Virus record (IMG/VR): IMGVR_UViG_3300033146_004156
Location: 1 to 56,059 of that record
Reading direction: 5' to 3' (one strand)
Length of the DNA: 56,059 bases
Source of the DNA: a virus
Shown in pieces: positions 28,558 through 46,915 of this stretch. Within the stretch, counting starts at the first letter, position 1, and every line of letters starts with the position of its first letter. The notes under the pieces are model-generated. The model was not told where the DNA came from. It saw only the letters and a program-made list of their open reading frames with translations, and did no database searches. The translations under genes were made by a program, and so were the position numbers.

Positions 28558-28565
28558 TATAAATA
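28558..28565 (+). promoter_or_regulatory. Late promoter (TATAAATA) for the 28581-gp15 operon
   Basis: Exact octamer 16 bases before the ATG at 28581, with AAAGGAT between. Confidence 0.75.
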
Positions 28566-28918: not shown

Positions 28919-29764
28919 ATGGCTTTAGATTATGATACTCAAATAAATAATACTTTAATATTTAATAGTACTCGTACATATACACTTGCAATTTTAGATG
29001 GCTTAAATAATATTAAACATTTTGTAAGAAATGAAGATGGTTCAGCTTCCGAAAAAGTAGTACCTATTACATTTGGTAACTATGAGAAATCTATAGCTTT
29101 AGCTGATATAGACCAAGCTACTTTAGAACAAGGTAACTGGAATTTTGTTCCAAGAATGGTCTTAAGTTTTGAAGGTATGACTAAAGCAGGTGAAAGAACT
29201 ACGAATAAATTCCAGAAACTTTCCAAGAAGATTGAGTACGAGGGTAAGACTTTATTAAATTATGGTTTCAATTCAGTACCTTATGACTTTCAATTTGTAT
29301 TAACACTACAAGCAAGAGGATTAAATGAAGCATTTCAAATAGTAGAACAAATTTTACCTATGTTTCGTCCTTCTTATAATATACAGATTCAAGAATATCC
29401 AATGTTTGATGAAATGACGGAGACTCAGTTACAGATAACAGACCCTAGCTTTGAAATTATAGATGAATTTGCTGCAGAAGATATAAACTTAATTAATGTT
29501 ACATTTTCACTAAACTTAAGAGCGAATCTTTATATGCCTTTACAGTTAATTGCACCTATCGAGACTGTTAAACTGTTTAATCATTTATGGGAAACTCAAG
29601 ATTATAAAGAAAGCCAAAAAGCTTCATATTACAAATGGAATGTTTGTGCAGAAGGTAATCATAAAATTTATAATACTGAGATTGAAGAACATTATGCTCC
29701 GCCTAAGCTAAATGATAAACCAAAAATACAAGAAAAAGAAAAAGTGGTTTGCGAAAAACCATAA
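28919..29764 (+). CDS. 15: Tail sheath stabiliser and completion protein gp15
   Basis: Protein of 281 residues (T4 gp15 272). The central match is strong: 'FQIVEQILPMFRPSYNIQI', where T4 has FQIVEQILPYFQPHFN, plus 'KVVPITFGNYEK' (T4 RVPITYASKEH), 'WNFVPRMVLSFEGM' and the C-terminal 'LNLRANLYMPLQLIAP'. Gp15 hexamers cap the head-proximal end of the tail and dock to neck protein gp14, which is encoded at 48824-49615. The Lys/Glu-rich C-terminus beyond residue 245 is variable. Confidence 0.92.
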   Translation: MALDYDTQINNTLIFNSTRTYTLAILDGLNNIKHFVRNEDGSASEKVVPITFGNYEKSIALADIDQATLEQGNWNFVPRMVLSFEGMTKAGERTTNKFQKLSKKIEYEGKTLLNYGFNSVPYDFQFVLTLQARGLNEAFQIVEQILPMFRPSYNIQIQEYPMFDEMTETQLQITDPSFEIIDEFAAEDINLINVTFSLNLRANLYMPLQLIAPIETVKLFNHLWETQDYKESQKASYYKWNVCAEGNHKIYNTEIEEHYAPPKLNDKPKIQEKEKVVCEKP

Positions 29765-29805: not shown

Positions 29806-31074
29806 ATGGCATCAACAGGTATATTACAAAGAAGAGATTTAAAAGCCAATTTAATAAGTGGAATTCCATCAGATATTAATTATGGTTGGAGCGGGCAAGT
29901 TGCGATTGGTGAATTTGTTTTTGCCACAGACTTTAAAGAAATTGGATTTGTTGACAGTACAGATACATTAGTTTGGAGAGATATTGATGACTTTGGTAAT
30001 TCAATTTCGACAATTGAAGATCTATCTAATGTGGATGTAACTGGATTAACAGATACTAACATATTACAGTATGATTCAGCCACTTCTTCTTGGAAACCCG
30101 TAGCATCAACGCTAAGTATAACAGAATTAACTGATGTTGATACTGCGACTGTTGCTCCTACAGATACTCAAACTTTAGTGTGGGATAATGCTAATTCTTT
30201 ATGGAAACCTGGCACAATTGATACTGGTGATACTTCATCAGGTTTAGAAGCTATAGATGATGGTAATGGTATAGGTTGGAGATTAATAGGAACAGACCCT
30301 TTAAATTATGGAAATATTGGACTAAATAGTATCGATTTTTCATATTCTTCTGGTAGTTCTAATATATTTGGACCAACACAATCCAACTCTTTTACAATTG
30401 GTTATAATACTATAGCTTCAGGTAAAATGGCTTTTGCTGGAGGTTATACTACTGTTGCTTCTGGTGATAGATCTTTTGCTGGTGGCGGAGGAACTGTTGC
30501 TTCGGGTGATGCTTCTTTTACTTATGGAACAGATAATATAGCATCTGCAACAAATTCAACTACTTTTGGGCAGGGTATTAATGCAATAAATAATGCTTCT
30601 TTTGCGTTAGGAAGTTTTAATGTTGGTACTGATATTAACACAATTTTAGAAGTTGGTATTGGTACATCAGATAGTATAAGAGCAAACGGATTAGAAGTTT
30701 ATTTAGATGGAACTGCAACTTTACCAGAAGCAACTCCAGCAGAAATAACTAATAGAGGTGACCAAGCAATTGCAACTGTTGGATATGTTAATACAGTTGC
30801 CGGTGGCGGTGGCGGTGGCTCTTCTACTCCATTAGATATAGAAATAGCATTTGCAAATATTACAAATATGTTATATGATGTAAATAATTATTTAACTAAA
30901 ACTGTTTATGCTGCATTTGAATCTTATAATGCTGGTTATACAAGTAATTATACTTATGGTTCAAATAATAATCTTGATACTTTAATTATTAAAAATGATG
31001 TTGCGGTGGTTGTATTAACAGTTACATACGGATATGATGCAAATAATAATCTAATAACTGTAACTCGTACTTAG
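29806..31074 (+). CDS. Tail fibre protein with YadA-like head repeats
   Basis: Protein of 422 residues. Residues 60-140 contain two 'LSNVDV / LTDVDTATVAPTDTQTLVWD' repeats found in phage fibre shafts ('L.D.L.WD...W.P'). Residues 185-290 are YadA/Hep-type head repeats ('ASGKMAFAGG', 'ASGDRSFAGG', 'ASGDASFTYG'), 14-16 residues each, giving a trimeric left-handed beta roll. A Gly-rich linker at about 330 leads to a C-terminal beta domain with 'TYGYDANNNLITVTRT'. The N-terminus probably attaches to the baseplate. It opens the LamG gene array; a similar protein closes it at 45464. Confidence 0.75.
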   Translation: MASTGILQRRDLKANLISGIPSDINYGWSGQVAIGEFVFATDFKEIGFVDSTDTLVWRDIDDFGNSISTIEDLSNVDVTGLTDTNILQYDSATSSWKPVASTLSITELTDVDTATVAPTDTQTLVWDNANSLWKPGTIDTGDTSSGLEAIDDGNGIGWRLIGTDPLNYGNIGLNSIDFSYSSGSSNIFGPTQSNSFTIGYNTIASGKMAFAGGYTTVASGDRSFAGGGGTVASGDASFTYGTDNIASATNSTTFGQGINAINNASFALGSFNVGTDINTILEVGIGTSDSIRANGLEVYLDGTATLPEATPAEITNRGDQAIATVGYVNTVAGGGGGGSSTPLDIEIAFANITNMLYDVNNYLTKTVYAAFESYNAGYTSNYTYGSNNNLDTLIIKNDVAVVVLTVTYGYDANNNLITVTRT

Positions 31075-31083
31075 GACTAAAAT

Positions 31084-32457
31084 ATGAGTGCTACATTAGC
31101 AGAAGACGTAATAGTATTGGATAAAGTTGGTGGAAATATTATATGTGGTTATGGTTTAAATATTTCTAATTTTTTCGGAGAAACATTAAAAAATAAATCT
31201 ATATTAGATCCAATGGCAGAAACTAAATGGTATTGGCCTTTTAATTGTAAAGATTTATTAACCGATACAATAGTGAATAAAGTAGCTATTTCTAACGGAA
31301 TACCAGAACAAGATACACTATTATATAATAATTTTTCGTATCCATGTGTAAAATTAGATTCAACAGAGTATTTAGGCATGGGGTTGATATATAATGGTAG
31401 TGTAAATGAAAATACTTTTCAAAAAACTACAACAATTTCATTTATTTTTAATACTGATAAAATAGTATACGGTAGTAAAATAGCACAAGGGCATCACACT
31501 ACTGGAACAGCTGTATTATTAACTAGTAATTTATTTGGTTTACATTTTACTTATGATAACACTACATCATTAACACTGGGTATTTATAATTCAAATGGTG
31601 ATTATGATTATTGTTATACATCTGGGATAAACTTTCAAATAAATACTAGTTATCATGTGACTTGTGTCTTAGATGCTGCCACATCATCAGCAAAAATATA
31701 TATCGATGGTATATTAAGAGGTTCATCAACAATTTCAGGGATAGTACAAACATATTATGATGCTAATGTATATTTTAATTGGTCAACAACCTCAAATCAA
31801 GGAAATATTAAAATAGCTAATTTTAAACTTATTAAAAAAGCTTTAAGTGCTTCTGAAGTTTTAACATTATCTACTGAAGAAATTAATGTACAAGTATTCG
31901 TCCCTATTAAAATTTCAACAAGGAAACATTTTCCAGAAGATCAAGAAGAATCAGAAGACCCAGTTGATACATCTGGGTGGTACCACATCACATTTAATTC
32001 CGATACTTATGGTGATTATGATTTAGATACATTAACTCCAACTTCAGGATTTGGCGGAACATTTGCGAACCATTCGCTAGATTCAAATAATTATTTGACT
32101 TCTACAGGTGCATCTTCTAATAATAGTTTTAAATCTAGAGTTGTTGATAGTATTCATCTTGAGGCAGATAGAAATTATACAGATAAATCAACAACTAGTA
32201 ATTATCGTTGTAAAATTACCTGGGACCCCAATACTAGAACTTGGGATAGAACAGATAATGTAGATTATTGGTTATATCCTATAAATCAAACCGCAAGTAA
32301 TTCTCACTCATTAGGTGTAATTACATCAGACCCAAGATTCTTATGTGATGTTTATGATACAAATACATCGGATTCAAACTCTAGTGGAGAATATTCATTA
32401 TTTCCAAAAAATGCTTTTATTTATTTACATAACGGCGAAAGAATAGAGGAGATATAA
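31084..32457 (+). CDS. LamG-type tail adhesin A (array copy 1)
   Basis: Protein of 457 residues, first of eight 'MSxEL-type' genes. N-terminal tag MSATLAEDVIVLDKVGGN is matched only by gene A' (36627). Residues 45-265 form a LamG/ConA-like domain (start 'TKWYWPFNCKDL', 'SYHVTCVLDAATSSAKIYID', closing 'FKLIKKALSASEVLTL'). The C-terminal ~170 residues differ from every other member: a Thr/Ser-rich beta domain with 'CKITWDPNTRTWDRTDNVDY'. LamG domains bind sugars or surface proteins. The stop overlaps the next start (TAATG). Likely part of a receptor-binding appendage; no catalytic motif seen. Confidence 0.65.
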   Translation: MSATLAEDVIVLDKVGGNIICGYGLNISNFFGETLKNKSILDPMAETKWYWPFNCKDLLTDTIVNKVAISNGIPEQDTLLYNNFSYPCVKLDSTEYLGMGLIYNGSVNENTFQKTTTISFIFNTDKIVYGSKIAQGHHTTGTAVLLTSNLFGLHFTYDNTTSLTLGIYNSNGDYDYCYTSGINFQINTSYHVTCVLDAATSSAKIYIDGILRGSSTISGIVQTYYDANVYFNWSTTSNQGNIKIANFKLIKKALSASEVLTLSTEEINVQVFVPIKISTRKHFPEDQEESEDPVDTSGWYHITFNSDTYGDYDLDTLTPTSGFGGTFANHSLDSNNYLTSTGASSNNSFKSRVVDSIHLEADRNYTDKSTTSNYRCKITWDPNTRTWDRTDNVDYWLYPINQTASNSHSLGVITSDPRFLCDVYDTNTSDSNSSGEYSLFPKNAFIYLHNGERIEEI

Positions 32458-33896
32458 TGTCAGCAGAATTAGGTGTTTTAAATAAGATTAGACCACATAA
32501 AGATTTTTATGGTATTCATAAAGATGATTTTAATTCAAATAGAAGTATAGATATATCTAGAGTATTTGATAAAACTCCAAATATTGGCGATAGTACTGTA
32601 GATATTCATGATATTTTTGAAGATGGTAGTTGTTTAGCTACATATCAATTTAATGGGGATGTTACAGATTTAGGTGGGAATTATGATGGAACAAATACAA
32701 ATATAATATTTGAAGATGGAGTATATAATGAATCTAGTAAATTTAGTGGTAACTCATATTCAGATTTAGGATTTAATCTAAACACTAAGTCATTCTCTAT
32801 ATCTATGTGGGTTTATCAATCTAATAATGCATATATATTAGGAAACGTTCAATCTTCAGCTTCTGATTATGGTATTATTTTATATTCTAGAGATGGTTTT
32901 ATACAAATGAGATTCTTCAATTCAAGTGGAACATATTCTTCATTAGATATTATATGTAATAATAATTCTTGGAACCATATAACATATACATATAATAGAG
33001 ATTCTCATATTATAAAAGGATATTTAGACGGTATTTTATTTGATTCAACGATAAATCTACATTTAATAGATATTTCTGCAACATATAACTTAAGATTGGG
33101 TGGATTTCCTAATCCTCATAGTTCTGGGTTTATTGGAAATGTGGATCAATTCCGTGCCTTTAATAGAGTATTAACAGAATTAGAGATAAAAAAACTCTAT
33201 TATGAACAACCACAGAAAAAAATTGTGATGGATATTGAAATGCCTCAAGAATATATTAGTACAGTAAGTAATGTAGACCCATTCGATGATGATTCTGGAG
33301 TTGCTCTTTATCAGTTCGATGGAGATGCATTGGATACTGGTGGTAATTATCATGGAACTAATTCTGGAGTTACATTTGAATCCGGTAAGTATAATCAATG
33401 TGGTGTGTTTAATGGTTCCAATTCTTATATTAGCTCTATTACCACTAATCAACAAGTATATTGTGTTAGTTGTTATATAAACATTAATGATTTTTCAGAT
33501 AGTGGTATTTATAATACACTATCAGATTTTTCTGAATATTCAACTTCGGGAATATTGCTAGCTTTAGATTCTTCCTCACAGAGTATAGTAGGGTTATGTA
33601 GGGATGGCACAAATAGTTCAACTGTAAGTTTTAGTGCTAACATTGATAAGTACTATTTTATAGTATTACAAGTTGATTACAAAACAGTGAGTTTATATAT
33701 AGATGGTAATCTTGTGGATACTCACATTAATGCGAATGATTTTATAATTGCACAAAAAAATACACAAATTGGAGTTTATGGTATTAGTGGTGTGTCATAT
33801 CACTTTAATGGTAAAATAGATCAACTAAGAATATTCAACAGAGCTTTAGATGAAAAAGAGATAAATATATTATATAACGAAAGGGTCTTAAGATGA
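32457..33896 (+). CDS. LamG-type tail adhesin B (array copy 1)
   Basis: Protein of 479 residues. The tag 'MSAELGVLNKIRPHKDFYGI' then 'HKDDFNSNRSIDIS' is matched by gene B' (38682). Two LamG-like domains follow, about 45-250 and 265-478. Each starts 'ATYQFNGDVTDLGGNYDGT' or similar, has 'W.HITYTY...... GYLDG' in the middle and closes with 'VDQFRAFNRVLTELEIKKLY' or the same pattern. The second domain shares a nearly identical stretch of DNA with B'. Overlaps the next gene by 4 bases. Confidence 0.7.
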   Translation: MSAELGVLNKIRPHKDFYGIHKDDFNSNRSIDISRVFDKTPNIGDSTVDIHDIFEDGSCLATYQFNGDVTDLGGNYDGTNTNIIFEDGVYNESSKFSGNSYSDLGFNLNTKSFSISMWVYQSNNAYILGNVQSSASDYGIILYSRDGFIQMRFFNSSGTYSSLDIICNNNSWNHITYTYNRDSHIIKGYLDGILFDSTINLHLIDISATYNLRLGGFPNPHSSGFIGNVDQFRAFNRVLTELEIKKLYYEQPQKKIVMDIEMPQEYISTVSNVDPFDDDSGVALYQFDGDALDTGGNYHGTNSGVTFESGKYNQCGVFNGSNSYISSITTNQQVYCVSCYININDFSDSGIYNTLSDFSEYSTSGILLALDSSSQSIVGLCRDGTNSSTVSFSANIDKYYFIVLQVDYKTVSLYIDGNLVDTHINANDFIIAQKNTQIGVYGISGVSYHFNGKIDQLRIFNRALDEKEINILYNERVLR

Positions 33897-35986
33897 GTGC
33901 AGAATTAGCAATACTTAACAAAGCAAAAAACGAATCTGGCCATACTGTTGCAGCACCTTATTACGATGTAGATGAAACTAAACTGGATATTAGTGAAAAA
34001 ATTATAGGTAAAGATACAACCAATATTCATAATGTTTTCAATGATGAGAGCTGTATCGCTACATATCAATTCAATGGAGATGCTAATGATTTAAGTGGGA
34101 ATTATAATTTCACTAGTAATTTAGTAGATTATGTGGATGGTAATTTTCATAAAGCTATTGAATTTAATAATATCAATTCGCTATTAACATCTACAAGTTT
34201 ACAACCAATATTTGCACAAACAGATATTTCTATAAGTCAGTGGATTAAAGTAAAAGATTTTACATCCTTTGAATATATATGGAATGTTGGCGCAACCGTA
34301 GATAACTTTGCAATGACTCTTTATTTTAATAATGATACAATAGTATTTGGTTTAGTTGATAACGAGTATAATACACATAATCTTGTTGTACCCATAATAA
34401 AAAATAATGAATGGGTGCATATTGCTATAGTTCTAAATAATACTCACAGTAAATTATATATTAATGGAACGCTTGCTGGAGAAAACACTGATGTGTTTAC
34501 AAGAATTAGTATAACTCATGGGTTATTTGTTGGCGGGTGGGGTACTCATATAGATTTAAATAAATATACTGGACAATTAAATCAGATGAGAATATTTAAT
34601 AAAATATTATCAAATACTGAAGTTAAAGATTTATATAATGAATACAATATAGTCTCCGGATACGAAGGAACTTACTCAACAACAGATTTACACGATATCT
34701 TTAATGATGGTTCTGCAATTGCCACTTATACAATGGATGGTAATGTTAAAGATCTTTCAGGAAATTATGATGGTGTTGCTACTAATATTAATTATGCTAA
34801 GGGTAATTTTTATGGTTCAAGAAGTTCAGTTTTTGATGGGGCATCAAATATTGATTTATTAGAGCATGCATCGGCTTTTGAATCTAATAACTATTCAGTT
34901 TCGGGTTTTGTAACATTTAATAAACTCGAAGGGCAGAGAGGCATATTTAATAGTTTTTATTATCAAGCAAGTAATGTGTATTGGGGAATATTTATAGGCT
35001 ACTTCGGTTCTGCATTACAGGTTGTTCATATGAATAATGGTCCATGGGGCCTGGATGAACAACTAATTTCATTAGACTGCCTTATAGAAGATACTAAACA
35101 TTTTATTACAATAACTAGTAATGATGCATATGTTAAAATATATGCCGACAACATTTTAATTTCAGAAAAACAACTACCTTTAGCTGGTTGGGCTACAACA
35201 AAGGCACAAAAAATAGGGGATCTATTAACTGCTCAAATAGAGCAACTAAGAATATTTAACAGAGCATTAACAGAATCCGAAATAAATACACTATACACTG
35301 AAACTTTACCTCGCCCAATATCTGAAGATATTTCTGATATTTTTGAGGATAATAGTATTTTAGCTCATTATAAATTTAATAATAATGCAGTTGATGAGAC
35401 TGCAAATTATAATGGAACAGTACTTGATACTACTTATACAACAGGAAAATTTAATAAAGGTTTAGAGTTAAGTGGATATGGAAATAGTTATTTAAGTATC
35501 CCGCTTAAATTAAGTACAGTTTCATCTATTAGTTTATGGATAAACTTTAATAATTTTGACCACCGTATTGGTATATACAGTGAGTGGTGGAATTCATATG
35601 ATTGTTGTCATAACATGTGGGCTGCTGGTGGAGAAATACGAACACATACCCAACATGTTTGTACTTCTAGTGGTCAAACAAATGATTACCGCTCTAATTT
35701 AAAATTAGATTTAAATACTTGGTATAATGTAACTGCGATTTATGATGATACTAAACATGAAGTATATATTGATGGAATTAAAGTTATAGATGGCACTATA
35801 CAAGCTTTTACAGGAGGAAGGAATTTACGTTTTGGACCTTATTATCAAGATGTTTCAGTTTATCCAGATAGAACATTAGATGGTAGTATAGACCAAATAA
35901 GAATTTTTAATAAGGCTTTATCACATAAAGAAGTCTTAGATTTATATAATGAAATGCCAGAATTAAAGGCGGTAATACAAAAATGA
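33893..35986 (+). CDS. LamG-type tail adhesin C (array copy 1), three domains
   Basis: Protein of 697 residues. The tag 'MSAELAILNKAKNESGHTV' is nearly identical to that of C' (39500). Three LamG-like domains at about 45-252, 262-478 and 485-690, each with the opening 'IATYQFNGDANDLSGNYN' type and the closing 'IEQLRIFNRALTESEINTLY' type. Short linkers 'HDIFNDGSAIATYTMDGN' connect them. The third has a Cys pair (YDCCHNMW) absent from others. It ends 'YNEMPELKAVIQK', an ending also seen in C' and, modified, in D'. Overlaps the next gene by ATGA. Confidence 0.7.
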   Translation: MSAELAILNKAKNESGHTVAAPYYDVDETKLDISEKIIGKDTTNIHNVFNDESCIATYQFNGDANDLSGNYNFTSNLVDYVDGNFHKAIEFNNINSLLTSTSLQPIFAQTDISISQWIKVKDFTSFEYIWNVGATVDNFAMTLYFNNDTIVFGLVDNEYNTHNLVVPIIKNNEWVHIAIVLNNTHSKLYINGTLAGENTDVFTRISITHGLFVGGWGTHIDLNKYTGQLNQMRIFNKILSNTEVKDLYNEYNIVSGYEGTYSTTDLHDIFNDGSAIATYTMDGNVKDLSGNYDGVATNINYAKGNFYGSRSSVFDGASNIDLLEHASAFESNNYSVSGFVTFNKLEGQRGIFNSFYYQASNVYWGIFIGYFGSALQVVHMNNGPWGLDEQLISLDCLIEDTKHFITITSNDAYVKIYADNILISEKQLPLAGWATTKAQKIGDLLTAQIEQLRIFNRALTESEINTLYTETLPRPISEDISDIFEDNSILAHYKFNNNAVDETANYNGTVLDTTYTTGKFNKGLELSGYGNSYLSIPLKLSTVSSISLWINFNNFDHRIGIYSEWWNSYDCCHNMWAAGGEIRTHTQHVCTSSGQTNDYRSNLKLDLNTWYNVTAIYDDTKHEVYIDGIKVIDGTIQAFTGGRNLRFGPYYQDVSVYPDRTLDGSIDQIRIFNKALSHKEVLDLYNEMPELKAVIQK

Positions 35987-36606
35987 GTAAAGAATTAACT
36001 AGTGCTAGAAGTGTTGTAGCTTATGGTATGAGAGCAATAAAAGATGAAAATTTTAACTCTGAGACAATGATTGATGTTACATTAGATGCTTCCATGAATA
36101 ATCCTGTATCGTCAGGCACAAAAATTATAATACCATATCGAGATGGTGATTATGAACAAGTCTATGAAGTACCTAACAAATGTGTTAGATTATCAGATGG
36201 AACTATGTGGTGTCATACATACAATGTTCCCGATAATAGTAATGAAGCTGGAGTAAAAGCAGCTATCAAAGCAGAATTTGGTGACTCTGCTGTAATTTTA
36301 GATTGGTCCGATTTAATTGCGTATCATTCAGTCAATGGGGATTTACAACCTATGTTTGATTTAGCTACAAATCTTAACATAACACTTTATAGCGGTATTT
36401 ATGGAATATGCCAATATTATGGAGACTATACCCAATCAAGTTCAAAAAAATATTTTGTTGCTAGTGAAGCACAATATCATACATCTAGTTTTTCTGTATT
36501 TGCAACACTTGGGGTTGGTGAAGGCACACACGGAGATGATTTAGCAAATATGAGTTCTGGAGATGGACAATTTCCTTGTTATGTTAAAATTCCGACACCA
36601 GTATAA
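35983..36606 (+). CDS. Adhesin-array protein D (copy 1), no LamG domain
   Basis: Protein of 207 residues. N-terminal tag 'MSKELTSARSVVAYGMRAIK' then 'SETMIDVT' is shared with D' (41681). The remainder is a single domain unlike LamG, with 'DGDYEQVYEVPNKCVRLSDG', 'MWCHTYNVPD' and a Gly/Ser-rich C-terminus. The domain has four Cys. It may be an attachment or regulatory member of the appendage. No family recognised. Its stop overlaps a TATAAATA at 36602, so the second array copy has its own promoter. Confidence 0.6.
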   Translation: MSKELTSARSVVAYGMRAIKDENFNSETMIDVTLDASMNNPVSSGTKIIIPYRDGDYEQVYEVPNKCVRLSDGTMWCHTYNVPDNSNEAGVKAAIKAEFGDSAVILDWSDLIAYHSVNGDLQPMFDLATNLNITLYSGIYGICQYYGDYTQSSSKKYFVASEAQYHTSSFSVFATLGVGEGTHGDDLANMSSGDGQFPCYVKIPTPV

Positions 36607-36609
36607 ATA
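36602..36609 (+). promoter_or_regulatory. Late promoter (TATAAATA) for the second adhesin cassette
   Basis: Exact octamer overlapping the stop of gene D and 17 bases before gene A'. It is the only TATAAATA I noticed between 28566 and 45405, and stands exactly at the junction of the duplicated cassettes. Confidence 0.65.
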
Positions 36610-36626
36610 GTATAAAAAGGACTTAA

Positions 36627-38678
36627 ATGAGTGCAGAATTAGCGGAAGATATACAAGTCCTTGATAAAATTGGTGGAAATAAATTTTCAGACACTAAAGG
36701 TGTATATATAATAGTTGATGATTTTACATCACATTACAAGTTAGAAAGCAATGCACTAGATGCAACAGGAAACTACAATGGTACTGAACTAGGAAATACA
36801 TACGAATTGGTAAATGGTAAAGGGTCAGTAGCTAGTTTTGATGGAGTGGATGATTATATAACTATACCTAGTGATGCTACATCATTAGATAATACTACAT
36901 TTTGTTTTTGGTACCGAGTAACAGGCACAGGAACTGGTGGAGATGATTCTGAATTACCATCTGATGTGTTCTTCAGTAAGGGTAGATATAATAGTTCTTT
37001 CACTGGAATGGTTGTACTTAGAGCAAACGATGCTACAGTAGCCAAGGTAATGTATCATAAAGGATCTGGAGTTATTGGTAATGCATTATACGTGTTTGAT
37101 ATACCAGCTGAGGTAGGAACTTTCCACCATTTAGCTTTCCATCATGATAATTCAGGTGTTGATAGTGTTCTTACAGTATTTATTGATGGAGAATATCATG
37201 GATCTCATTCTACTACTAACTCAACATTTGATAATTCTTTAGATTTAATGATAGGGGCTGGACTCACATATAATAATGGGACTATAGGTGATTTTCTCAA
37301 AGGTAACATATCAAACCTAAGAATTTATGATAGAGTATTATCTTCGCTAGAGATAAATTCAATTTATAACTCAGAATTGGATAATACACCAAAATATAAA
37401 AACAAACTAAGTGTCTTAGACTTCTTAACAGATACTGACCCTACTCCTCAAGATTATGTAGCGTATTACCCTTTGACTGGAACAGCTGAGGATAAGACTG
37501 GAAATTATGATGGTGTTGAGAATGGTGGTTTAACTTATGTTGATGATTCTGAGAGAGGAAGTGTTGTAAATTTTGATGGAGTTGATGATATTATTTCTGA
37601 TTCAATATATAATATTAGTGACTCAGGTAGTTTATCATATTATATTAAGTCTAATGATTTAATTAAACAACATATTCAAACGAGTAAATTTTTCTGTTAT
37701 AGAGACTATATTTTTATATGGGATGCCAATAATGGAAAGGAAAATTATACATCATATAATATGAGTAGTTTTATGAAAACAGGTGAATGGAATCACATAT
37801 ACGTAGATACAAATACTATAGCCGTTAATGGTCATATTATAGATGTCACAGGAGTAAGCGGGGTAGCTTCGTATATATATGATGTGGGGACTATTGGTGG
37901 AGGTTTTAATAGAACGAATGGATTTTATTACGCTAACACTCAATTATCAAGTATAAGAATCTATGATAGAGTACTATCAACAAAAGAAATAGAAACAATT
38001 TACAACTATGAAAAGATTACACATAATGTTCCAGTAGATGATGGACTAATTGCTTATTATCCATTGAAGAAAAATTCGAAGGATAATTGGTACAATCAAT
38101 TCAATGGCACTGATACAGGTGTTGTTTATGATGGACAGAGTGCTAGTTTTGATGGAGTTGATGATAAAATCGATATTAGTCAAATTTCGAGTCAACTAAA
38201 AATACAAAATTTTAGCATAAGTTGTTGGGTAAAAAAGGTAGATGATTCAAATGTTACATTTTTCGGCTACACTAATCATAATTACTATTATGGATACACT
38301 CTTAATTCAATTAACTCTAAGTATAGATTCACATCATATGGTGATAATGGAGTAGCTCAGATTGATATTCAATCAGAAAGTAATATCGTAGTTGGAAAAT
38401 TTCAACATGTAGTGGTTACAATTTCTGACAATAATATTCGTATGTATATTAATGGAGAGATAATCATATCTGAATCAAGTCAAAATATTCTGTTTGATAC
38501 TACCATGTATAGTCTCATAGGCGAAAATTCAATCAGAAACGATTATAATAGATATATGAAGGGCAACTTATCTGATTTCAGATTTTACAACAAAGCTCTG
38601 AGTGATAATGAAATAAAAGAAATCTACGACACTGAATTACCAGAATTTATAGATTTAACAATACCAAAAAAAGGATAA
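36627..38678 (+). CDS. LamG-type tail adhesin A' (array copy 2), three domains
   Basis: Protein of 683 residues. The tag 'MSAELAEDIQVLDKIGGN' matches gene A; the rest does not follow A. Three LamG-like domains at about 30-248, 265-462 and 468-678. Typical parts: 'HYKLESNALDATGNYNGTE', 'SFDGVDDYITIP', 'FHHLAFHHDNSG', 'VFIDGEYHGS' and 'LRIYDRVLSSLEINSIYN'. The third ends 'DFRFYNKALSDNEIKEIYD'. A therefore kept the N-terminus but exchanged its binding region: one LamG plus unique domain in A, three LamG in A'. RBS AAAAGGAC. Confidence 0.7.
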   Translation: MSAELAEDIQVLDKIGGNKFSDTKGVYIIVDDFTSHYKLESNALDATGNYNGTELGNTYELVNGKGSVASFDGVDDYITIPSDATSLDNTTFCFWYRVTGTGTGGDDSELPSDVFFSKGRYNSSFTGMVVLRANDATVAKVMYHKGSGVIGNALYVFDIPAEVGTFHHLAFHHDNSGVDSVLTVFIDGEYHGSHSTTNSTFDNSLDLMIGAGLTYNNGTIGDFLKGNISNLRIYDRVLSSLEINSIYNSELDNTPKYKNKLSVLDFLTDTDPTPQDYVAYYPLTGTAEDKTGNYDGVENGGLTYVDDSERGSVVNFDGVDDIISDSIYNISDSGSLSYYIKSNDLIKQHIQTSKFFCYRDYIFIWDANNGKENYTSYNMSSFMKTGEWNHIYVDTNTIAVNGHIIDVTGVSGVASYIYDVGTIGGGFNRTNGFYYANTQLSSIRIYDRVLSTKEIETIYNYEKITHNVPVDDGLIAYYPLKKNSKDNWYNQFNGTDTGVVYDGQSASFDGVDDKIDISQISSQLKIQNFSISCWVKKVDDSNVTFFGYTNHNYYYGYTLNSINSKYRFTSYGDNGVAQIDIQSESNIVVGKFQHVVVTISDNNIRMYINGEIIISESSQNILFDTTMYSLIGENSIRNDYNRYMKGNLSDFRFYNKALSDNEIKEIYDTELPEFIDLTIPKKG

Positions 38679-38681
38679 GAA

Positions 38682-39503
38682 ATGTCAGCAGAGTTAGCAA
38701 CAATACAACAAATTAAGAAAAAGAAAGATATGTATGCAATACATGAAGATAATTTTATTCCAAATAAACAGATTGATATTTCTGGGATGTTTCCTGAGAC
38801 TACATTAATAGATAAGAAAATAGTCCTAGATATAGAAGAACCTCAAGAATATATTAGTACAGTAAGTAATGTAGACCCATTCGATGATGATTCTGGAGTT
38901 GCTCTTTATCAGTTCGATGGAGATGTTTTAGATACTGGTGGCAATTATCATGGAACTAATTCTGGAGTTACATTTGAATCCGGTAAGTATAATCAATGTG
39001 GTTATTTTGATGGAAATCATCAAATTACAACAAATGTTCCATATTTTACAGGAGACTTTACAATCAGTGCTCATATCAAAACAGATGGAACAGCTGGAGG
39101 ATACTTGGCATCTGAATGGAATTCTTCTGGTGGGTATGGTATTTTTATTTCTATCGGACATGATGCTATTGGACTTGGGGCATATAACGGGACTAATCAA
39201 ATATCTACATGGGGTTTGGTAGATCATGACAATGGTAATAGCTGGAATCATGTCACATTCTCCTTTAATGGAACTACTGATGTTGACGGTGTTAAATTAT
39301 TTTTCAATGGTAAGGAAGTTGGATCTGGTTCATCAACTAGTGCAGTGTTAAGTGGTGCTTCACATCCTTTATATATTGGAACTACAATGCATAGTACGCA
39401 ATTTGATGGTAAAATAGATCAATTCAGAATATTCAACAGAGCTTTAAACGAAAAAGAGATAAATATATTATATAACGAAAAAATTGAAAGGCATCTTACA
39501 TGA
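38682..39503 (+). CDS. LamG-type tail adhesin B' (array copy 2), one domain
   Basis: Protein of 273 residues. Tag 'MSAELATIQQIKKKKDMYAI' then 'HEDNFIPNKQIDIS' as in B. It has one LamG-like domain (about 60-270) corresponding to the second domain of B: the linker 'PQEYISTVSNVDPFDDDSG' and the domain start are the same, after which the sequences diverge ('FTISAHIKTDGTAGGYLASE'), and the close 'IDQFRIFNRALNEKEINILY' is again the same. The gene looks like B with its first LamG domain deleted and the middle of the second replaced. ATGA overlap with C'. Confidence 0.7.
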   Translation: MSAELATIQQIKKKKDMYAIHEDNFIPNKQIDISGMFPETTLIDKKIVLDIEEPQEYISTVSNVDPFDDDSGVALYQFDGDVLDTGGNYHGTNSGVTFESGKYNQCGYFDGNHQITTNVPYFTGDFTISAHIKTDGTAGGYLASEWNSSGGYGIFISIGHDAIGLGAYNGTNQISTWGLVDHDNGNSWNHVTFSFNGTTDVDGVKLFFNGKEVGSGSSTSAVLSGASHPLYIGTTMHSTQFDGKIDQFRIFNRALNEKEINILYNEKIERHLT

Positions 39504-41659
39504 GCGCAGAATTAGCAATACTTAACAAAGCAAAAAACGAAGCCGGTCATACTGTTTGTGTTCCAGAATATGATTACGATCCTTCTGATGAAGTTGATAT
39601 TAGTCGTAAAGTTTTGGGTGAATCTACACTTAATATAGTAGATGAAGCAACTATACACAATACTGATCCATTTGGTGATGGTAGTCTAGTGCATAAAATG
39701 GAAATGAATGACATTAATCCTACCATTGGCACAGCTGTAACAAATAATAATATTACTTTTGTTGATGAAAGTATGTTTGGTGGATCAAGTGTGTTTAATG
39801 GCACAAATTCAACATTTCTTTACGATGCAGATATTAAACCTGTTTTGACTAATCATTTCACAATAAGTGCATTTTGTAAAGCAAGTTCGATAATCAATAG
39901 CTCATATATATATTTGAGCGGTTGGACTACTCAAAATGCTAGTAGTTTAATACAATTACATCCTACTGGAATTTATGCATCTATCATTGATGGTTCTGGG
40001 CACTGGCATAATGTCTCATACATACGCACACCACCTATAAATGAATGGATTAGTATAATACTCATTTATTCAAGTACAGGATTGAAGTTATATGTGAATG
40101 GAGATTTAAAAAACGAAATATCAGGATCATTCAGCATAAAAAACATAGATGCAAATGTGCAAGTTGGTGGTTGGTATGATAATAATTCTAATTATTTCGA
40201 TGGTTTAATAGACCAAGTGGAAATATATAATAGACCATTAGAACATCATGAAGTACAAAAAATTTACAATTTAAGATCTTCTAATTATTACGAAGATACT
40301 ACAGATGTTAGAAAAATCCATGATATCTTTAATGACAGTTCTGCGATTGCCACTTATACAATGGATGGTAATGTCAAAGATTTAAGTGGAAATTATGATG
40401 GAGTTCCAACTAATATTAGTTATGGAAAGGGCGATTTTTATGGTAGTAGAAGTACTGTATTTAATGGTGTTGATAGTAAAATAATGATACCTAATCCTGA
40501 TGATTTTAAGATTGAAAACGATAGTGTAAGTGTATGGTTTAAAGTTGAGCACTCATCTAATGCAGTTGTTGTATTTAATAATAATACAGCTTCTTCTGGT
40601 GGTGGACGGACAATCAATGGTGGATTTTTAATAAAATTGGTTGATGGAACTATTCGCACAGATCATTTTATGAAGGACGTTGAGACTAATACAGACTACT
40701 TGGGTAATACTAACACTTCATATGCTGGTATATCTGTCACACCGTATAATTCAAACACTTGGAATAATTTAGTTATTGTTCGAGAATCCCTAAACACACA
40801 CAAAATATATTTAAATGGCATATTTGTAAATTCAGTATCCACATTGCAAAATATGAGGTGGAGTTCAGACTCTAGCAGGGATAATGTAAGTATAGGTATG
40901 TTATATGAAAGTGATACAGATTATTTTCCACTAAATGGTGAAATAGACCAACTAAGAATTTTCAACAGAGCCTTAACTGAATCTGAAATAAATGTACTTT
41001 ATACAGAAACTCTTCCAAGACCTCAAACAGTAAATAATTCTGATGTCTTTAATGATGGTAGTATTTTAGCTCATTATAAGTTCAATGGAAATGCATTAGA
41101 CGAAACTGGTAATTATAATGGAGTTGAAACAAATGTAACTTATGATGATGATGGTAAGTTTGGAAAATGTTTAGAAATGCCAGATATTGGTAATACTGGA
41201 AAAATTAATACTGGGACGATAACAGGTGACGTAATATCCTTAAGTTTATGGGCCAATATACCAATTTTTAAAGTTAGTGGGAGTTTATTCTATACTACAT
41301 CAAAAATTGGTATATATCTTATTGATAATGGGATTGCCATGCATTACAATAATGTTTGGTCTGGACCATTAAATTGTGTATTGCCTATAGATAATTTATT
41401 TCATCATTATGTGGTTACATCAAGAGACAATTTGTGTGTGTTGTATATAGATGGTATAGATAGTGCACAATTTGATATTACTGGAGGCACTCCACTAACA
41501 AATATAGAAATTGACATCGGCGGGGATGGAACCAGCTCATATTGCTTAAATGAATCTTTGACTGACCAACTAAGAATCTTCAACAGAGCCTTAACTCCTT
41601 TAGAAGTCTTAAAATTATATGAAGAAAAACCAGAATACAAAGCGGTTATTACAAAATGA
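39500..41659 (+). CDS. LamG-type tail adhesin C' (array copy 2), three domains
   Basis: Protein of 719 residues with the C-type tag 'MSAELAILNKAKNEAGHTV'. Three LamG-like domains at about 55-268, 278-500 and 510-712, matching C domain for domain: linkers 'HDIFNDSSAIATYTMDGN' and 'ILAHYKFNGNALDETGNYN' and ends 'IDQLRIFNRALTESEINVLY' and 'DQLRIFNRALTPLEVLKLY' are close, while the cores between them differ. This fits conserved scaffolding with diversified binding faces. Ends 'YEEKPEYKAVITK'. Confidence 0.7.
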   Translation: MSAELAILNKAKNEAGHTVCVPEYDYDPSDEVDISRKVLGESTLNIVDEATIHNTDPFGDGSLVHKMEMNDINPTIGTAVTNNNITFVDESMFGGSSVFNGTNSTFLYDADIKPVLTNHFTISAFCKASSIINSSYIYLSGWTTQNASSLIQLHPTGIYASIIDGSGHWHNVSYIRTPPINEWISIILIYSSTGLKLYVNGDLKNEISGSFSIKNIDANVQVGGWYDNNSNYFDGLIDQVEIYNRPLEHHEVQKIYNLRSSNYYEDTTDVRKIHDIFNDSSAIATYTMDGNVKDLSGNYDGVPTNISYGKGDFYGSRSTVFNGVDSKIMIPNPDDFKIENDSVSVWFKVEHSSNAVVVFNNNTASSGGGRTINGGFLIKLVDGTIRTDHFMKDVETNTDYLGNTNTSYAGISVTPYNSNTWNNLVIVRESLNTHKIYLNGIFVNSVSTLQNMRWSSDSSRDNVSIGMLYESDTDYFPLNGEIDQLRIFNRALTESEINVLYTETLPRPQTVNNSDVFNDGSILAHYKFNGNALDETGNYNGVETNVTYDDDGKFGKCLEMPDIGNTGKINTGTITGDVISLSLWANIPIFKVSGSLFYTTSKIGIYLIDNGIAMHYNNVWSGPLNCVLPIDNLFHHYVVTSRDNLCVLYIDGIDSAQFDITGGTPLTNIEIDIGGDGTSSYCLNESLTDQLRIFNRALTPLEVLKLYEEKPEYKAVITK

Positions 41660-41680
41660 TAAACAATATAAAGGAAAGAT

Positions 41681-42988
41681 ATGTCAAGTGAATTAACACA
41701 AGCAAAACAAATTAAACCTTATGGTATGAGAATTATATCACCAGAAAGATACGATGAAAATACAATGATAGATGTTACAGAATCTGTAGAAAATTCCCGC
41801 ACTAATGTTGAGCATGTTGTAATAAATGGTAGTACAACAACATTAGAAGATTTAAGTAATTACGCAGATATTTCAGCAATTGAAGCATCTGGCACGTTTC
41901 TAACTGATTCAACTTATGGAATTTCTTGGGGGCAACATATTGAATCTGATACATCATTAGATTTAATTATAGATGATGTCAATATATCAGAAGTACAATT
42001 TACTATAAGTGGTATATTAAATTCAAATTCGTTAGGATGGATGCATATTCTTATATATAATGCCGATGAAGAATATATAAGTTCTTCAACTATTAGAGAT
42101 GCCTGGGCAGCTGATTCAGTAGGCCAGACTTATGTAAGAGATGATATACTAATACAATCTCAATCAGCAATTAATATTATAAACGATACCATTATAGTTA
42201 AAGATATTAATATTACAAAAATAGTGGTTGGAATTTATTATATGCCTGGTTATAGTAAATCTCCAAGATGGATAAATTATTTAAAATATATTACTTCTAC
42301 TATAAAAGATGTAGAAATTAACACAACACACATTCACGATATTTTTGAAGATAATTCTATACTAGCGACTTATAGATTTAATGGCGATACTAAAGATATT
42401 GGTGGGAATTATAATGGTACTAATAATGGAGTTACATTTAATTCTGGAAAATTCGGAGAAGCTGGTACCTTTAATGGTGTGGATAGTAATATAGATATTG
42501 AGAATAATTCAAAATTTAATGTAAATACAACAGGTGCTATTACAATTTCTGGGTGGACTAAACTTGATAATTTTACAATAGAAAGTTATTTATTCAGCAC
42601 TAATAGTAATTCAAATACAACTTACAGCTATTATTTAGGAATAAATAATACTTCTAAAGTTGCATTATGCGGACATTGTAATGGAACTAATTGGAGTAAT
42701 GCGCATGGTACTACTGTTATAAAGCCAAATACTTGGTATTTTTTAACTGGTATTATAGTTAATGGTGGAGGTATTTCTATTTATCTTAATGGTAAATTAG
42801 AAGGGACAGCAACAGCACAACCAACAACTAATAATGTTATTGATGTTTGTATAGGGAGAAGTAGAGAATATTATTTAGATGGTAAAATAGATCAATTAAG
42901 AGTATTTAATAGAGCTTTAACAAAAGATGAAGTTTTAACTCTTTATAATGAAAGAGAAGATTATAAATGTGTAATTCCTATGCAATAG
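41681..42988 (+). CDS. LamG-type tail adhesin D' (array copy 2)
   Basis: Protein of 435 residues. The tag 'MSSELTQAKQIKPYGMRIIS' then 'ENTMIDVT' matches D. Residues 45-210 form a beta domain not related to D's domain ('DLIIDDVNISEVQFTISGIL', 'WMHILIYNADEEYISSS'), and residues 222-430 are one LamG-like domain ('ILATYRFNGDTKDIGGNYN', 'WYFLTGIIVNGGGISIYLNG', 'IDQLRVFNRALTKDEVLTLY'). It ends 'YKCVIPMQ', paralleling the C and C' ends. Last of the array; its end overlaps the convergent HD-domain gene by 11 bases. Confidence 0.7.
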   Translation: MSSELTQAKQIKPYGMRIISPERYDENTMIDVTESVENSRTNVEHVVINGSTTTLEDLSNYADISAIEASGTFLTDSTYGISWGQHIESDTSLDLIIDDVNISEVQFTISGILNSNSLGWMHILIYNADEEYISSSTIRDAWAADSVGQTYVRDDILIQSQSAINIINDTIIVKDINITKIVVGIYYMPGYSKSPRWINYLKYITSTIKDVEINTTHIHDIFEDNSILATYRFNGDTKDIGGNYNGTNNGVTFNSGKFGEAGTFNGVDSNIDIENNSKFNVNTTGAITISGWTKLDNFTIESYLFSTNSNSNTTYSYYLGINNTSKVALCGHCNGTNWSNAHGTTVIKPNTWYFLTGIIVNGGGISIYLNGKLEGTATAQPTTNNVIDVCIGRSREYYLDGKIDQLRVFNRALTKDEVLTLYNEREDYKCVIPMQ

Positions 42989-43534: not shown

Positions 43535-45382
43535 CTAACCCCAAGTATTAATAGTTGGTGTATACTTCTTGATTTTATCAACAATTTTACCTGTTAGTAT
43601 TGATAAATCTATTTTTTTACCAGCTTCTTTAACTTTAACGTACGCAGAATCTACAACATAGAACCCACCTGTTTCTGAAGCTTTAATCGCTGAATCTTGT
43701 CCCTTTTTATTAAAGGCAAATACGATAGCTCCATCCATATACTTCTTGATTTTAGAACCCATATTAACAATTTTTTTCATTGTTAATGCTGCTCCCTCGT
43801 GAGTATCAATTAAAATATCTTCAGGTACAACACGACTTCTTTCTTGATTTTGAGTTAAAGCAACTTTAACATCATTAACAACCCAAACAATATGGATATT
43901 TTCTTTAGCATAACCAAGTTCTGCAGTGTCCATAATAATATCGTTAAGCTTTTGGATATCATCTAAAGTAACATCAAATATAATATTTGGTTTTCTCTCT
44001 GGATTAGATGCAGCGATTGTATCAAATAATCTTCTTTGTTTCTTATCAGATATACCTAAATCTTTAACAATTTTATGTACTACTGAAACATTTTTAGGAT
44101 TCTTTAAATCAATATCTTTTAAAGATACTCCCATCTGTTTCATAACTTTATCATTTAACATAGGAGATTTCATAGCAAATACTTTAAGAGCATCAACATC
44201 TAAAATCTTCCCTTCAATTCCTAAAAGATTTTGAGTCACAAATCCTTTACCTGAATTATGATTTACTAAAAAATTCTTTAGTATAAATCTTTTATCTTCT
44301 TCTTCTATACTAAAACCATAATAATTATTTTCTGGTAATTCTTTTATTTCAAACCCCATTCTTAATACATTTTTATTCTTTTTATTAATAGGTTGTTTAT
44401 ATTCTAACACAATTGGTAAATCACTAAAATCATTTCCACTAATAGAAATTCTGTGATATTGTCTTATTTCACCATTCCAATTGATATTTTTTACAACACT
44501 TTTTGTTCTATAACCCAATGAACCACATAAAAATTCAATATCTTCTTTTAAACCATCAAATTTTGTTAAAATTTCAAACATTCCGCCAATATTACAACCA
44601 TCGGAATCTATTAAACCGGCAAGTACTTTTTTTCTATTTTCACTTGAAGTAATTAATAATTCTTTTGGGATTCGTTTTTCTGTATTAATATAACAATTAT
44701 CTCTAACATAATTAAGAAATGGGTTAATTTTTGAACCCTTTGTTGTAAGAGAATATGTTTTACAACCTAATTTTGTTGTTTTAATTGGGTTAAATGAATA
44801 ATTATTTATTTCATATTTTTCACTAATATGAGATATTAGTGGAGAATCATTCTCAATTGTAAAATTGGGGGTATTTCTTGTACCGTCTCCAAGCCAAAAT
44901 CCAATTAACCAAGGGTCTATTTCAAAATCATAATTATTTTCAAATTCAATTAATTCCGATTTATATAACTTAAGATATTTTTTAACTGATGGTTTAGTTT
45001 TTAAATATTCCGAATAAGTAAGATTATAAATTTGGCCTTTTTTAAATCCACATTTATTTGTGCTGCAAATAAATGTATGAATATGATTAATATTACAAGT
45101 ATAAGAGTCACCCTTATTTGTTGTAACTTCTAACATTTTTTCTCTACCAGAATGTAATTCTTTAACAGTACGAAGTTTTGAGTCGGGTCCCATTAATTTA
45201 TCATTAATATTTATATCTTGCACTTTTTTATATTCACCATTATACATTAGTATTTCTGTATCTTTAGTATGACACCCGGCTCCACCAGCTAATATAACAA
45301 TATTTCCAAATTTTGGATATGCTTTTTTACCTAGTGTAATTAGTACTTCATTAATAAATTCATTTTTAAAATCAAATTTCAT
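43535..45382 (-). CDS. P-loop kinase/ATPase-like protein interrupted by an intein
   Basis: Frame of 615 residues. After removal of the intein (residues 37-376) the mature protein has 275 residues and begins 'KFGNIVILAGGAG' joined to 'SGKGFVTQNLLG', restoring a Walker A P-loop GGAGSGKG. A probable second motif is 'GKILDVDALKVFAM'. Further parts: 'RKPNIIFDVTLDDIQKLND', 'IHIVWVVNDVKVALTQNQER', and a Lys-rich C-terminus. The zeta-toxin / polynucleotide-kinase-like branch is the nearest guess. The N-terminus 'KFDFKNEFINEV' looks like a capsid-targeting tail. A palindromic late promoter (45406-45417) lies upstream, so it is a late gene, possibly packaged in the head. Confidence 0.75.
   Translation of the reverse strand: MKFDFKNEFINEVLITLGKKAYPKFGNIVILAGGAGCHTKDTEILMYNGEYKKVQDININDKLMGPDSKLRTVKELHSGREKMLEVTTNKGDSYTCNINHIHTFICSTNKCGFKKGQIYNLTYSEYLKTKPSVKKYLKLYKSELIEFENNYDFEIDPWLIGFWLGDGTRNTPNFTIENDSPLISHISEKYEINNYSFNPIKTTKLGCKTYSLTTKGSKINPFLNYVRDNCYINTEKRIPKELLITSSENRKKVLAGLIDSDGCNIGGMFEILTKFDGLKEDIEFLCGSLGYRTKSVVKNINWNGEIRQYHRISISGNDFSDLPIVLEYKQPINKKNKNVLRMGFEIKELPENNYYGFSIEEEDKRFILKNFLVNHNSGKGFVTQNLLGIEGKILDVDALKVFAMKSPMLNDKVMKQMGVSLKDIDLKNPKNVSVVHKIVKDLGISDKKQRRLFDTIAASNPERKPNIIFDVTLDDIQKLNDIIMDTAELGYAKENIHIVWVVNDVKVALTQNQERSRVVPEDILIDTHEGAALTMKKIVNMGSKIKKYMDGAIVFAFNKKGQDSAIKASETGGFYVVDSAYVKVKEAGKKIDLSILTGKIVDKIKKYTPTINTWG
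44255..45274 (-). mobile_element. LAGLIDADG intein in the Walker A motif
   Basis: An in-frame insertion of 340 residues. It begins with Cys (block A: CHTKDTEILMYNG), has the block B T-x-x-x-x-H pattern (YTCNINHIHTF), two LAGLIDADG helices (LIGFWLGDGT and LAGLIDSDG), a C-terminal block 'YYGFSIEEEDKRFILKNFLV', and ends His-Asn followed by Ser. All residues needed for splicing (Cys1, block B His, HN, Ser+1) are present. The site is between GGAG and SGKG of the host P-loop, so the host protein is inactive until splicing. Both endonuclease Asp residues are present, so homing activity is plausible. Confidence 0.95.
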
Positions 45383-45405: not shown

Positions 45406-45417
45406 TATTTATAAATA
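45406..45417. promoter_or_regulatory. Palindromic bidirectional late promoter
   Basis: TATTTATAAATA again, between the divergent P-loop/intein gene (minus) and the fibre gene at 45464 (plus). One TATAAATA faces each direction (45406-45413 minus, 45410-45417 plus). Confidence 0.7.
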
Positions 45418-45463: not shown

Positions 45464-46906
45464 ATGGCTACAGTATGGGGTGAAATATCAGGCTTTATCA
45501 CAAACCAAGTAGATTTAAATGCTTTAATAGATGTTAAAAGTAATGGTTTAAATAAAGTAACAGAAGAAGTAGGAAAAGATGGGTGGATACTAAAGGATAA
45601 TAATGGTAGATTATTATCAAATCCAGTAGGTGCCTACTCTATTGACTTTACTTGGCAAGACCAATCAAATCCAGTAAGAGTTGTTGGGGCAATAGGTAAT
45701 TATAGTTTTGCAACTGGTAGAAATACACTAGCATCTGGGTTTAATTCTACAGTATCTGGTGATAGTTCAGTTGCATCAGGAAATAATTCAATAGCATCTG
45801 GATTAAATACAACAGCATCTGGAGATTACAGTTACGCAGCAGGAAGAGACAATATTGCTGAAGGCTTACAATCATTTGTAGTTGGTGTAAATAATAATGC
45901 AATATCTAATTCTAGTTTTGCTGCAGGTAATACAAATATAGTAGAAGCGCATGCTACAAATCCATTTCAAACCGCATTAAATGGGTTCGCTTCTGGAAGT
46001 AATTTAATAGTAAATAATCCAAATCAAGCAGCGTTTGGTTCATATAATGCATTAGATGAATCAGACAATTCTGGTAAATATAAAATATTTACTATTGGAA
46101 TTGGATCATCAACTCCAGGTATTAGACAAAATGGGTTCGAAGTTTATAATGGAACCGGTCTAGAAAGAGGATCTGTAAAGGCACCTTATTTACAACAATC
46201 TACTATTGAAGCGGATATTACGGGTAAAGTTTTAATTACTAAAGAATATTTAGAAAGCGCTTATAATCATGCATTTGATGATGCTCCCATAGATGGAAAA
46301 ATTTACGGTAGAAGTAATAAATCTTGGAAACAAGTAGCAGATGGAGCATCGACGCAAGTATATTATAAAGGAACTGTAACCCCTCCCCAAGATTTTACTA
46401 TTCCGAATTCTCCCGATTTTCTTTTCTCGGCTGGAGATATTTACATGCAATATCAAATCCCTCATTTTGTTACTGATGGTAATGTTAATGATGTTGATGG
46501 TAATACTGCTTTATATGATGGGAATTATGCATATGATTCTGAATACCGTGAATATATGGTTAAAGATACTGGTTCGCCGAGAACTGGTAATGTTGCAGAT
46601 TTTATCTGGATAGAAATTACAAATGGTACATTAAATGAAGCACCATCTAATAATGTAAATTATAATAGAAGAAATGATAAGTGGGTGGAAGCTGCAATTC
46701 AAAAAGATGTATTATATAATAATAAAACATATTACAGACGTAATAAAGAATGGGTGGAAGCAGATTTAAATATTGTATTTAAAGGTGTTGAAGAACCCAA
46801 TACATTAGACGATTTCGGAGCAACTGGTGATAATTATATGAGGCAGAAAATAGATACTCCCCCTAATAATTATGTACTAAATTCAGAACCTGGTAGTCCA
46901 GATTAA
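45464..46906 (+). CDS. Tail fibre protein with YadA-like head repeats 2
   Basis: Protein of 480 residues. N-terminal part (1-80) includes 'LLSNPVGAYSIDF', then from about 82 to 190 YadA/Hep repeats ('FATGRNTLASGFNSTVSGDS', 'ASGNNSIASGLNTTASGD') form a trimeric beta roll. Residues 250-480 contain 'IDGKIYGRSNKSWKQV' and 'APSNNVNYNRRNDKWVEA' units of fibre shaft type, also seen in the next gene. Similar in architecture to 29806-31074, at the other end of the LamG array. Pre-tube N-terminus probably fixes the protein to the baseplate or to another fibre segment. Confidence 0.75.
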   Translation: MATVWGEISGFITNQVDLNALIDVKSNGLNKVTEEVGKDGWILKDNNGRLLSNPVGAYSIDFTWQDQSNPVRVVGAIGNYSFATGRNTLASGFNSTVSGDSSVASGNNSIASGLNTTASGDYSYAAGRDNIAEGLQSFVVGVNNNAISNSSFAAGNTNIVEAHATNPFQTALNGFASGSNLIVNNPNQAAFGSYNALDESDNSGKYKIFTIGIGSSTPGIRQNGFEVYNGTGLERGSVKAPYLQQSTIEADITGKVLITKEYLESAYNHAFDDAPIDGKIYGRSNKSWKQVADGASTQVYYKGTVTPPQDFTIPNSPDFLFSAGDIYMQYQIPHFVTDGNVNDVDGNTALYDGNYAYDSEYREYMVKDTGSPRTGNVADFIWIEITNGTLNEAPSNNVNYNRRNDKWVEAAIQKDVLYNNKTYYRRNKEWVEADLNIVFKGVEEPNTLDDFGATGDNYMRQKIDTPPNNYVLNSEPGSPD

Positions 46907-46915
46907 AGGAAAATA

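Follow-up and report, generated by a model that had tools for sequence, protein, structure and literature searches.

A duplicated four-gene array of tagged LamG proteins at the tail-fibre locus of a T4-like phage, with conserved domain edges and apparently replaced cores

Introduction

The branched tailspikes of the Ackermannviridae combine four receptor-binding proteins whose N-terminal assembly domains are specific to their class and whose C-terminal binding parts have been exchanged (PMC11414711). In the T-even phages, hypervariable segments of gp37/gp38 lie between glycine-rich motifs, as reported in earlier work cited in two later papers (Montag 1987, cited in PMC12892980; Tetart 1998, cited in PMC11414711), and recent domain mosaicism of tail fibres has been described as a route of diversification (Smug et al. 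2023, PMC10684548). Such systems touch the central question of how the receptor specificity of a phage can change while its particle stays intact. In this study, a locus of eight consecutive genes was analysed in a viral DNA of 56,059 nucleotides (IMG/VR record IMGVR_UViG_3300033146_004156, positions 1 to 56,059, in the following the window). All eight products start with a short N-terminal tag, and seven of them contain LamG domains. An initial annotation of the window had stated that no described system resembles this arrangement, which is too strong a claim given the Ackermannviridae tailspikes (PMC11414711) and the frequent combination of a tag with LamG domains in phage contigs.

Results

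Anatomy and duplication of the eight-gene array

Eight plus-strand open reading frames between 31084 and 42988 lie end to end in the order A, B, C, D, A', B', C', D', and are joined by overlaps or by gaps of at most 21 nucleotides (Table 1). The initial annotation had located the eight genes correctly, but the start that it gave as MSxEL or close to it is better written MSxxL, the product of A beginning with MSATL. The Pfam profile Laminin_G_3 (PF13385) matched seven of the eight proteins with 43.8-150.9 bits (cut-off 27.6) and left D unmatched. Its stretches are distributed 1, 2, 3, 0 / 3, 1, 3, 1 over the array, 14 in total, exactly as initially counted.

A repeat of 71 nucleotides (D7) spans the B/C and the B'/C' gene junctions into the C tag with 86% DNA identity. 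Together with the same order of the tags in both halves and a late promoter motif before A', this repeat supports the duplication of a four-gene block that the initial annotation had suggested.

Foldseek assigned the LamG domain of B' to the concanavalin-like fold, with domain 4 of the arabinanase AbnA as the best match (E 2e-11). The B' model also matched viral ConA-like structures (E 6e-15), as expected of a concanavalin-like beta-sandwich. Matches to clostridial neurotoxin binding domains are taken to reflect the common lectin-like fold only. D had no counterpart in Pfam, in PHROGs or among PDB sequences, and its single-sequence structure model was unusable, with a predicted local distance difference test score (pLDDT) of 37. 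Residues from about 60 to 220 of D' and from about 273 to 457 of A are not LamG and were unmatched in Pfam and in solved-structure searches. Compared with annotated phages, B', D, C', D' and the C tag yielded weak or LamG-type matches, or none.

Four classes of N-terminal tags

For a comparison of the tags, residues 6-45 were aligned without the common MSxxL start, and BLOSUM62 scores were expressed as Z-scores against 500 shuffles. The Z-scores within pairs were 9.6 for A/A', 14.8 for B/B', 22.3 for C/C' and 14.6 for D/D', each reached by none of the 500 shuffles, and the highest value across classes was 4.2 (D/B'). The initial annotation had described this strict pairing and was prepared to abandon it if the tags were no closer within than across classes; the pairwise alignments gave the opposite result. 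The B, C and D tags have a common layout, MSxEL ... (I/L/V)D(I/V)(S/T) with the second motif near residue 33, whereas the A tag is shorter. The three are therefore likely to be subtypes of one ancestral tag and not unrelated.

Amino acid identity between paired tags is 72% for C and 51% for B, the B tags being 68% identical in nucleotides. Over 124 codons, the ratio of nonsynonymous (pN) to synonymous (pS) divergence of the tags is 0.56 (bootstrap 0.39-0.83), indicating purifying selection, which fits a role in attachment. In the model of B' (mean pLDDT 78.7), a helix at residues 2-17 is followed by a mostly low-confidence stretch from about residue 18 to 63, probably flexible, and then by the LamG domain.

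A tag profile matched at the eight places of the array and nowhere else in the record, and a joint tag profile found no match in 17 related records, the own record serving as positive control. IMG/VR searches that used the whole protein C and the tags of B, C and D returned no relatives, although the pattern search requires near-exact peptides, so that distant tags could escape it.

Conserved edges and replaced cores of the LamG domains

Each LamG domain was divided into an N-edge (the first 38 residues), a core and a C-edge (the last 30 residues), and domains are numbered by their order in the protein. For the pairs B.2/B'.1, C.2/C'.2 and C.3/C'.3, the N-edges are 95, 89 and 66% identical, the highest values of any pairing. 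The C-edges are 80, 73 and 53% identical, of which the first two are the two most alike and the third is moderate. The cores of the same pairs share 23, 19 and 26% identity and are thus at the level of unpaired domains, which average 33% in the N-edge, 23.5% in the core and 40% in the C-edge.

The same boundary is seen at silent sites. In B.2/B'.1, the two copies agree at 22 of 24 fourfold degenerate sites of the linker and N-edge, compared with 3 of 16 within the core; pS and pN are 0.21 and 0.03 in the edge as compared with 0.68 and 0.59 in the core. Because the silent sites change only in the middle, the cores were replaced and not point-mutated, even under positive selection. The case for core replacement is strongest for B.2/B'.1, and that for C.3/C'.3 rests on few silent sites. 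The pairs A.1/A'.1 and C.1/C'.1 are unlike throughout, suggesting that whole domains were exchanged there or that the edges are older. The closest N-edges in other phages are 58-63% identical for B.2/B'.1 and 55-61% for C.2/C'.2. The N-edges of B.2 and C.2 are thus specific to the present phage, which dates the replacement after the duplication.

In the initial annotation, the tag was kept and the binding module behind it exchanged. This does not describe the locus well, since the edges are conserved like the tags or more so. In B, the linker and LamG N-edge are 95% identical in amino acids and 93% in nucleotides, far above the values for the B tag. With a pS of 0.21, the edge of B is younger than its tag (pS 0.54), so that the copies must later have been homogenised or have had unequal histories. 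To picture a fixed tag followed by a free module is too simple, and the unit exchanged is mostly the core within a LamG domain, besides gain or loss of whole domains.

The same pattern in other viral contigs

When viral sequences were scanned with the LamG alignment, 80 contigs were returned (loci L055-L134). The scan patterns lay in the edges and therefore introduce a bias to edge similarity, over about 10 residues on either side and in one domain per locus, which does not extend to synonymous agreement or to unlike cores. Among 135 non-redundant domain pairs with edges at least 75% identical, core identity was 10-29% in 128, 30-39% in 4 and 60-79% in 3. No pair had a core at 40-59%, so that core identity is bimodal. 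Edge-matched pairs share domains and are not independent; those with low core identity span 47 contigs. Fourfold sites of the edges agreed at 0.36-0.43 where pairs were dissimilar, and at 0.78 in the group that has the closest edges but unlike cores. The loci L093 and L098 present the reciprocal case, a core of 81% identity between an N-edge of 46% and a C-edge of 61%.

In most proteins of the scanned contigs, the first LamG domain is immediately preceded by a short tag. One or two LamG genes were counted per locus in the stretches read, and at most three, at one locus. The open-access literature yielded no description of exchanged LamG cores in phages, most subscription journals lying outside the search, and the phenomenon appears to be undescribed within these mostly open-access sources.

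Genomic setting and late promoters

By its gene content, the source of the window is a T4-like myovirus. The sheath is 47% identical to that of Vibrio phage Va1 in a pairwise alignment (40.8% by tblastn), and the window also encodes a gp15-like terminator, baseplate wedge and hub genes and a terminase. The array comes after gp15, between a fibre-like gene at 29806 and an HD-domain gene (42978), and the same place is the tail-fibre locus in relatives. In Va1 it is occupied by a gene with the annotation 'gp36+37 fusion long tail fiber', and in the relative L051 (record G010) by long fibre-like genes. In L009, the closest relative (gp15 80%), one fibre-like gene of 682 amino acids and one LamG gene are found there. 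The product of the gene at 29806 starts with MASTGILQRRDLK, and its counterparts with MATTGIIQRRDLK in L009 and MATTGLIQRRDIK in L051. LamG matches were absent from the records G008 (235 kb) and G010 (183 kb). A gp15 scan returned a single close relative only, and a sheath scan of genome contigs returned remote sheaths alone (24-36% identity) and no pointer to a host.

TATAAATA is the core of the T4-type late promoter, and 14 of its 28 sites lie 23-54 nucleotides upstream of a start codon, the average for permuted 8-mers being 1.7. These 14 sites include overlapping divergent pairs at 21176-21187 and 45406-45417. As the only plus-strand site within the array precedes A', the second set may form a late unit of its own. 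Transcription of the first set can start at the motif at 28558, the presumed promoter of a unit through gp15, the gene at 29806 and A-D. A place beside tail genes together with a late promoter is as in the long-tail-fibre locus of T4-like phages. Scanned with Pfam and PHROGs, the eight genes gave LamG-type matches only and no gp37-like trimeric distal fibre or shaft.

Other features were observed in the window. At 45464-47740, two fibre genes carry several foldon-like (Fibritin_C) repeats, for example YVRKYGQWVEAYF, and the first of them also YadA head repeats. A zeta-toxin/kinase-like P-loop gene at 43535-45382 is split after GGAG by an intein-type Hint domain and a homing endonuclease (PF05203, PF05204), and L009 appears to hold an insertion at the same place of this gene. 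The genes at 54211-54885 and 25513-27000, beside the terminase and the sheath, are homing-endonuclease-like by eye with no Pfam match; similar-looking insertions occur near the sheath and gp15 in L009. A small gene at 50442-50687 contains a tandem heptad repeat of the KEVETKEVET type.

Table 1. Coordinates of the array genes, repeats, flanking genes and late promoter motifs in the window
Feature	Position	Strand	Remarks
A	31084..32457	+	tag 1-18; one LamG (31219-31875); unmatched C-terminal region
B	32457..33896	+	tag 1-37; two LamG (32628-33209, 33294-33884)
C	33893..35986	+	tag 1-36; three LamG (34049-34645, 34712-35305, 35354-35956)
D	35983..36606	+	tag 1-33 and unmatched domain; without LamG
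A'	36627..38678	+	tag 1-18; three LamG (36723-37376, 37452-38012, 38043-38636)
B'	38682..39503	+	tag 1-37; flexible linker; one LamG (38892-39482)
C'	39500..41659	+	tag 1-37; three LamG (39683-40276, 40340-41011, 41060-41629)
D'	41681..42988	+	tag 1-33; unmatched region, residues ~60-220; one LamG (42356-42955)
Linker and N-edge of LamG B.2	33216..33415	+	repeat D4, 92% nucleotide identity to 38814-39013
Linker and N-edge of LamG B'.1	38814..39013	+	partner of 33216-33415
B/C junction into C tag	33879..33949	+	repeat D7; partner 39486-39556, 86%
N-edge of LamG C.2	34691..34839	+	repeat D6; partner 40319-40467, 83%
C-edge of C.2, linker and N-edge of C.3	35221..35416	+	repeat D5; partner 40927-41122, 77%
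gp15-like tail sheath stabilizer/terminator	28919..29764	+	phrog_227, E 1e-33; matches gp15 from phages of Campylobacter and Vibrio
Trimeric fibre-like protein (YadA-head-like repeats by eye)	29806..31074	+	homologue present in L009 and L051 (relatives)
T4-type late promoter motif TATAAATA	28558..28565	+	23 nucleotides before gene at 28581
Late promoter motif TATAAATA	36602..36609	+	25 nucleotides before A'

Discussion

The anatomy of the array, the block duplication and the core replacement can be stated with high confidence. As a whole, the locus is on balance best read as an expanded receptor-recognition locus with tag-anchored adhesins, a duplicated block and core replacement. The eight late genes would encode adhesins composed of a short N-terminal tag, predicted to form a helix and a flexible linker, and of zero to three LamG or other variable domains. 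Position, promoter type, fold and selection make it fairly probable that the virion carries these proteins as adhesins and that the tags hold them there. The tag would be the attachment part, and its four subtypes A-D probably attach to four sites, either on the tail or on one another, while the LamG domains, by their predicted fold, may bind surface glycans. Duplication of the four-gene block gave the 2 x 4 array, and specificity would be altered by replacing LamG cores of about 120 residues, in addition to gain and loss of whole domains, most likely through recombination, presumably homologous, at the conserved DNA of the edges. Core swapping is likely a way to keep changing the cells that the phage recognises.

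Several observations weigh against tag-anchored adhesins with replaced cores. The tags match no known anchor, selection is weak and least clear in the D tag (pN/pS 0.83), and B', the only protein modelled usably, has a tag helix without a known partner. A trimerisation module is absent from the eight proteins, unlike in classical fibres. A second phage with the same tags, which would document a swap of modules between phages behind a constant tag, was not found in the searches above. Nor was the donor of any core found, the nearest cores elsewhere being 28-37% identical.

This leads to the question whether the eight proteins might instead assemble into a single hetero-oligomeric or branched complex, in which the tags, in fixed order, bind one another or a shared scaffold. 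Ackermannviridae tailspikes do so with four proteins from one cluster that have class-specific N-terminal domains (PMC11414711), and the common layout of the B, C and D tags is as expected for one type of interface. However, with 18-37 residues the tags are much below the size of the XD/TD domains, and neither a gp10-like nor a trimer domain was found with Pfam and PHROGs, which makes such a complex unlikely. Still less probable are decorations of the head surface or non-virion proteins, with tags that target the head or the host surface. Several of the proteins have phrog_8510 as their best PHROG match, a family of the head and packaging category, but it matches mostly via the LamG domains, the neighbours are tail genes, and relatives have their tail-fibre locus at this place.

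Fast evolution of the cores under positive selection would explain the contrast between edges and cores without recombination, and LamG families do keep their terminal strands better, as seen in the unpaired domains (edges 33 and 40%, cores 23.5%). Yet the synonymous sites jump as well, from 22/24 fourfold sites in the edge to 3/16 in the core, the core lengths differ, the other contigs are bimodal without cores at 40-59%, and the 81% core of L093/L098 lies between edges of 46 and 61%. This explanation is hence very improbable. An equally poor case can be made for independent stepwise duplications with a coincidental A-D/A'-D' order: the tags have diverged unequally between pairs (72% amino acid identity in C, 51% in B), but conserved DNA lies over the B/C junction in both sets and the order is identical across all four pairs. 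Mutation of the LamG cores by a diversity-generating retroelement, the phage targets of which are often lectin-like tail proteins, has next to no probability and was rejected, since no reverse transcriptase (PF00078) was found in the record, a partial genome, or in the three related records searched, with matching positive controls, and since the cores differ in length and throughout, unlike after adenine mutagenesis.

The preferred reading, tag-anchored adhesins with replaced cores, can be extended to other phages. Tentatively, and with somewhat less than even confidence, phage LamG adhesins may be a general recombination platform, in which the DNA of the terminal edges is a landing frame for unrelated cores of about 120 residues across phages and which is multiplied here into two sets of four genes that use four tag addresses. 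If so, one virion would display many specificities at fixed positions, and edges that are general landing frames could be used to find and read the natural pool of phage lectin cores. The locus is a readable record within one genome, in which the frame of a lectin domain is nearly unchanged and the core foreign, a signature also present in dozens of viral contigs. In addition, the four conserved tags are unusually simple candidate peptides for placing adhesins on a tail.

By analogy, the array may work like the Ackermannviridae cluster (PMC11414711) and T-even gp38 (PMC12892980), a likeness in function that need not mean membership in either. Like TSP1-TSP4 of CBA120 and S117 (PMC11414711), it is one cluster with class-specific N-termini, exchanged binders and a proposed origin by duplication. 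It differs in tags of 18-37 residues, in LamG arrays in place of beta-helix tailspikes, in two sets of four genes, and in an exchange that falls inside the binding domain; gp10-like XD/TD N-terminal domains were not found in PHROGs and Pfam scans, whereas class-specific N-termini before a variable binding part are present. With gp37/gp38, as far as described in the citing papers, the array shares variable segments between conserved motifs, proposed recombination there and the T4-like tail-fibre locus. Its frame, however, is a LamG beta-sandwich with two edges and many paralogues and not a polyglycine sandwich; the two are likened by architecture. The LamG proteins of L055-L134 often have a tag of about 20-40 residues directly before one to six LamG domains, and show the same pattern of edges and cores, but their tags belong to other families (MLGKRLIN..., MSLRKRLLVKPP..., MKALKGGWK...). 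Finally, the domain mosaicism of Smug et al. (PMC10684548) is a route of diversification as proposed for the array; in that study, the main text of which contains neither 'laminin' nor 'concanavalin', domains are the mosaic units, whereas the array swaps part of one domain.

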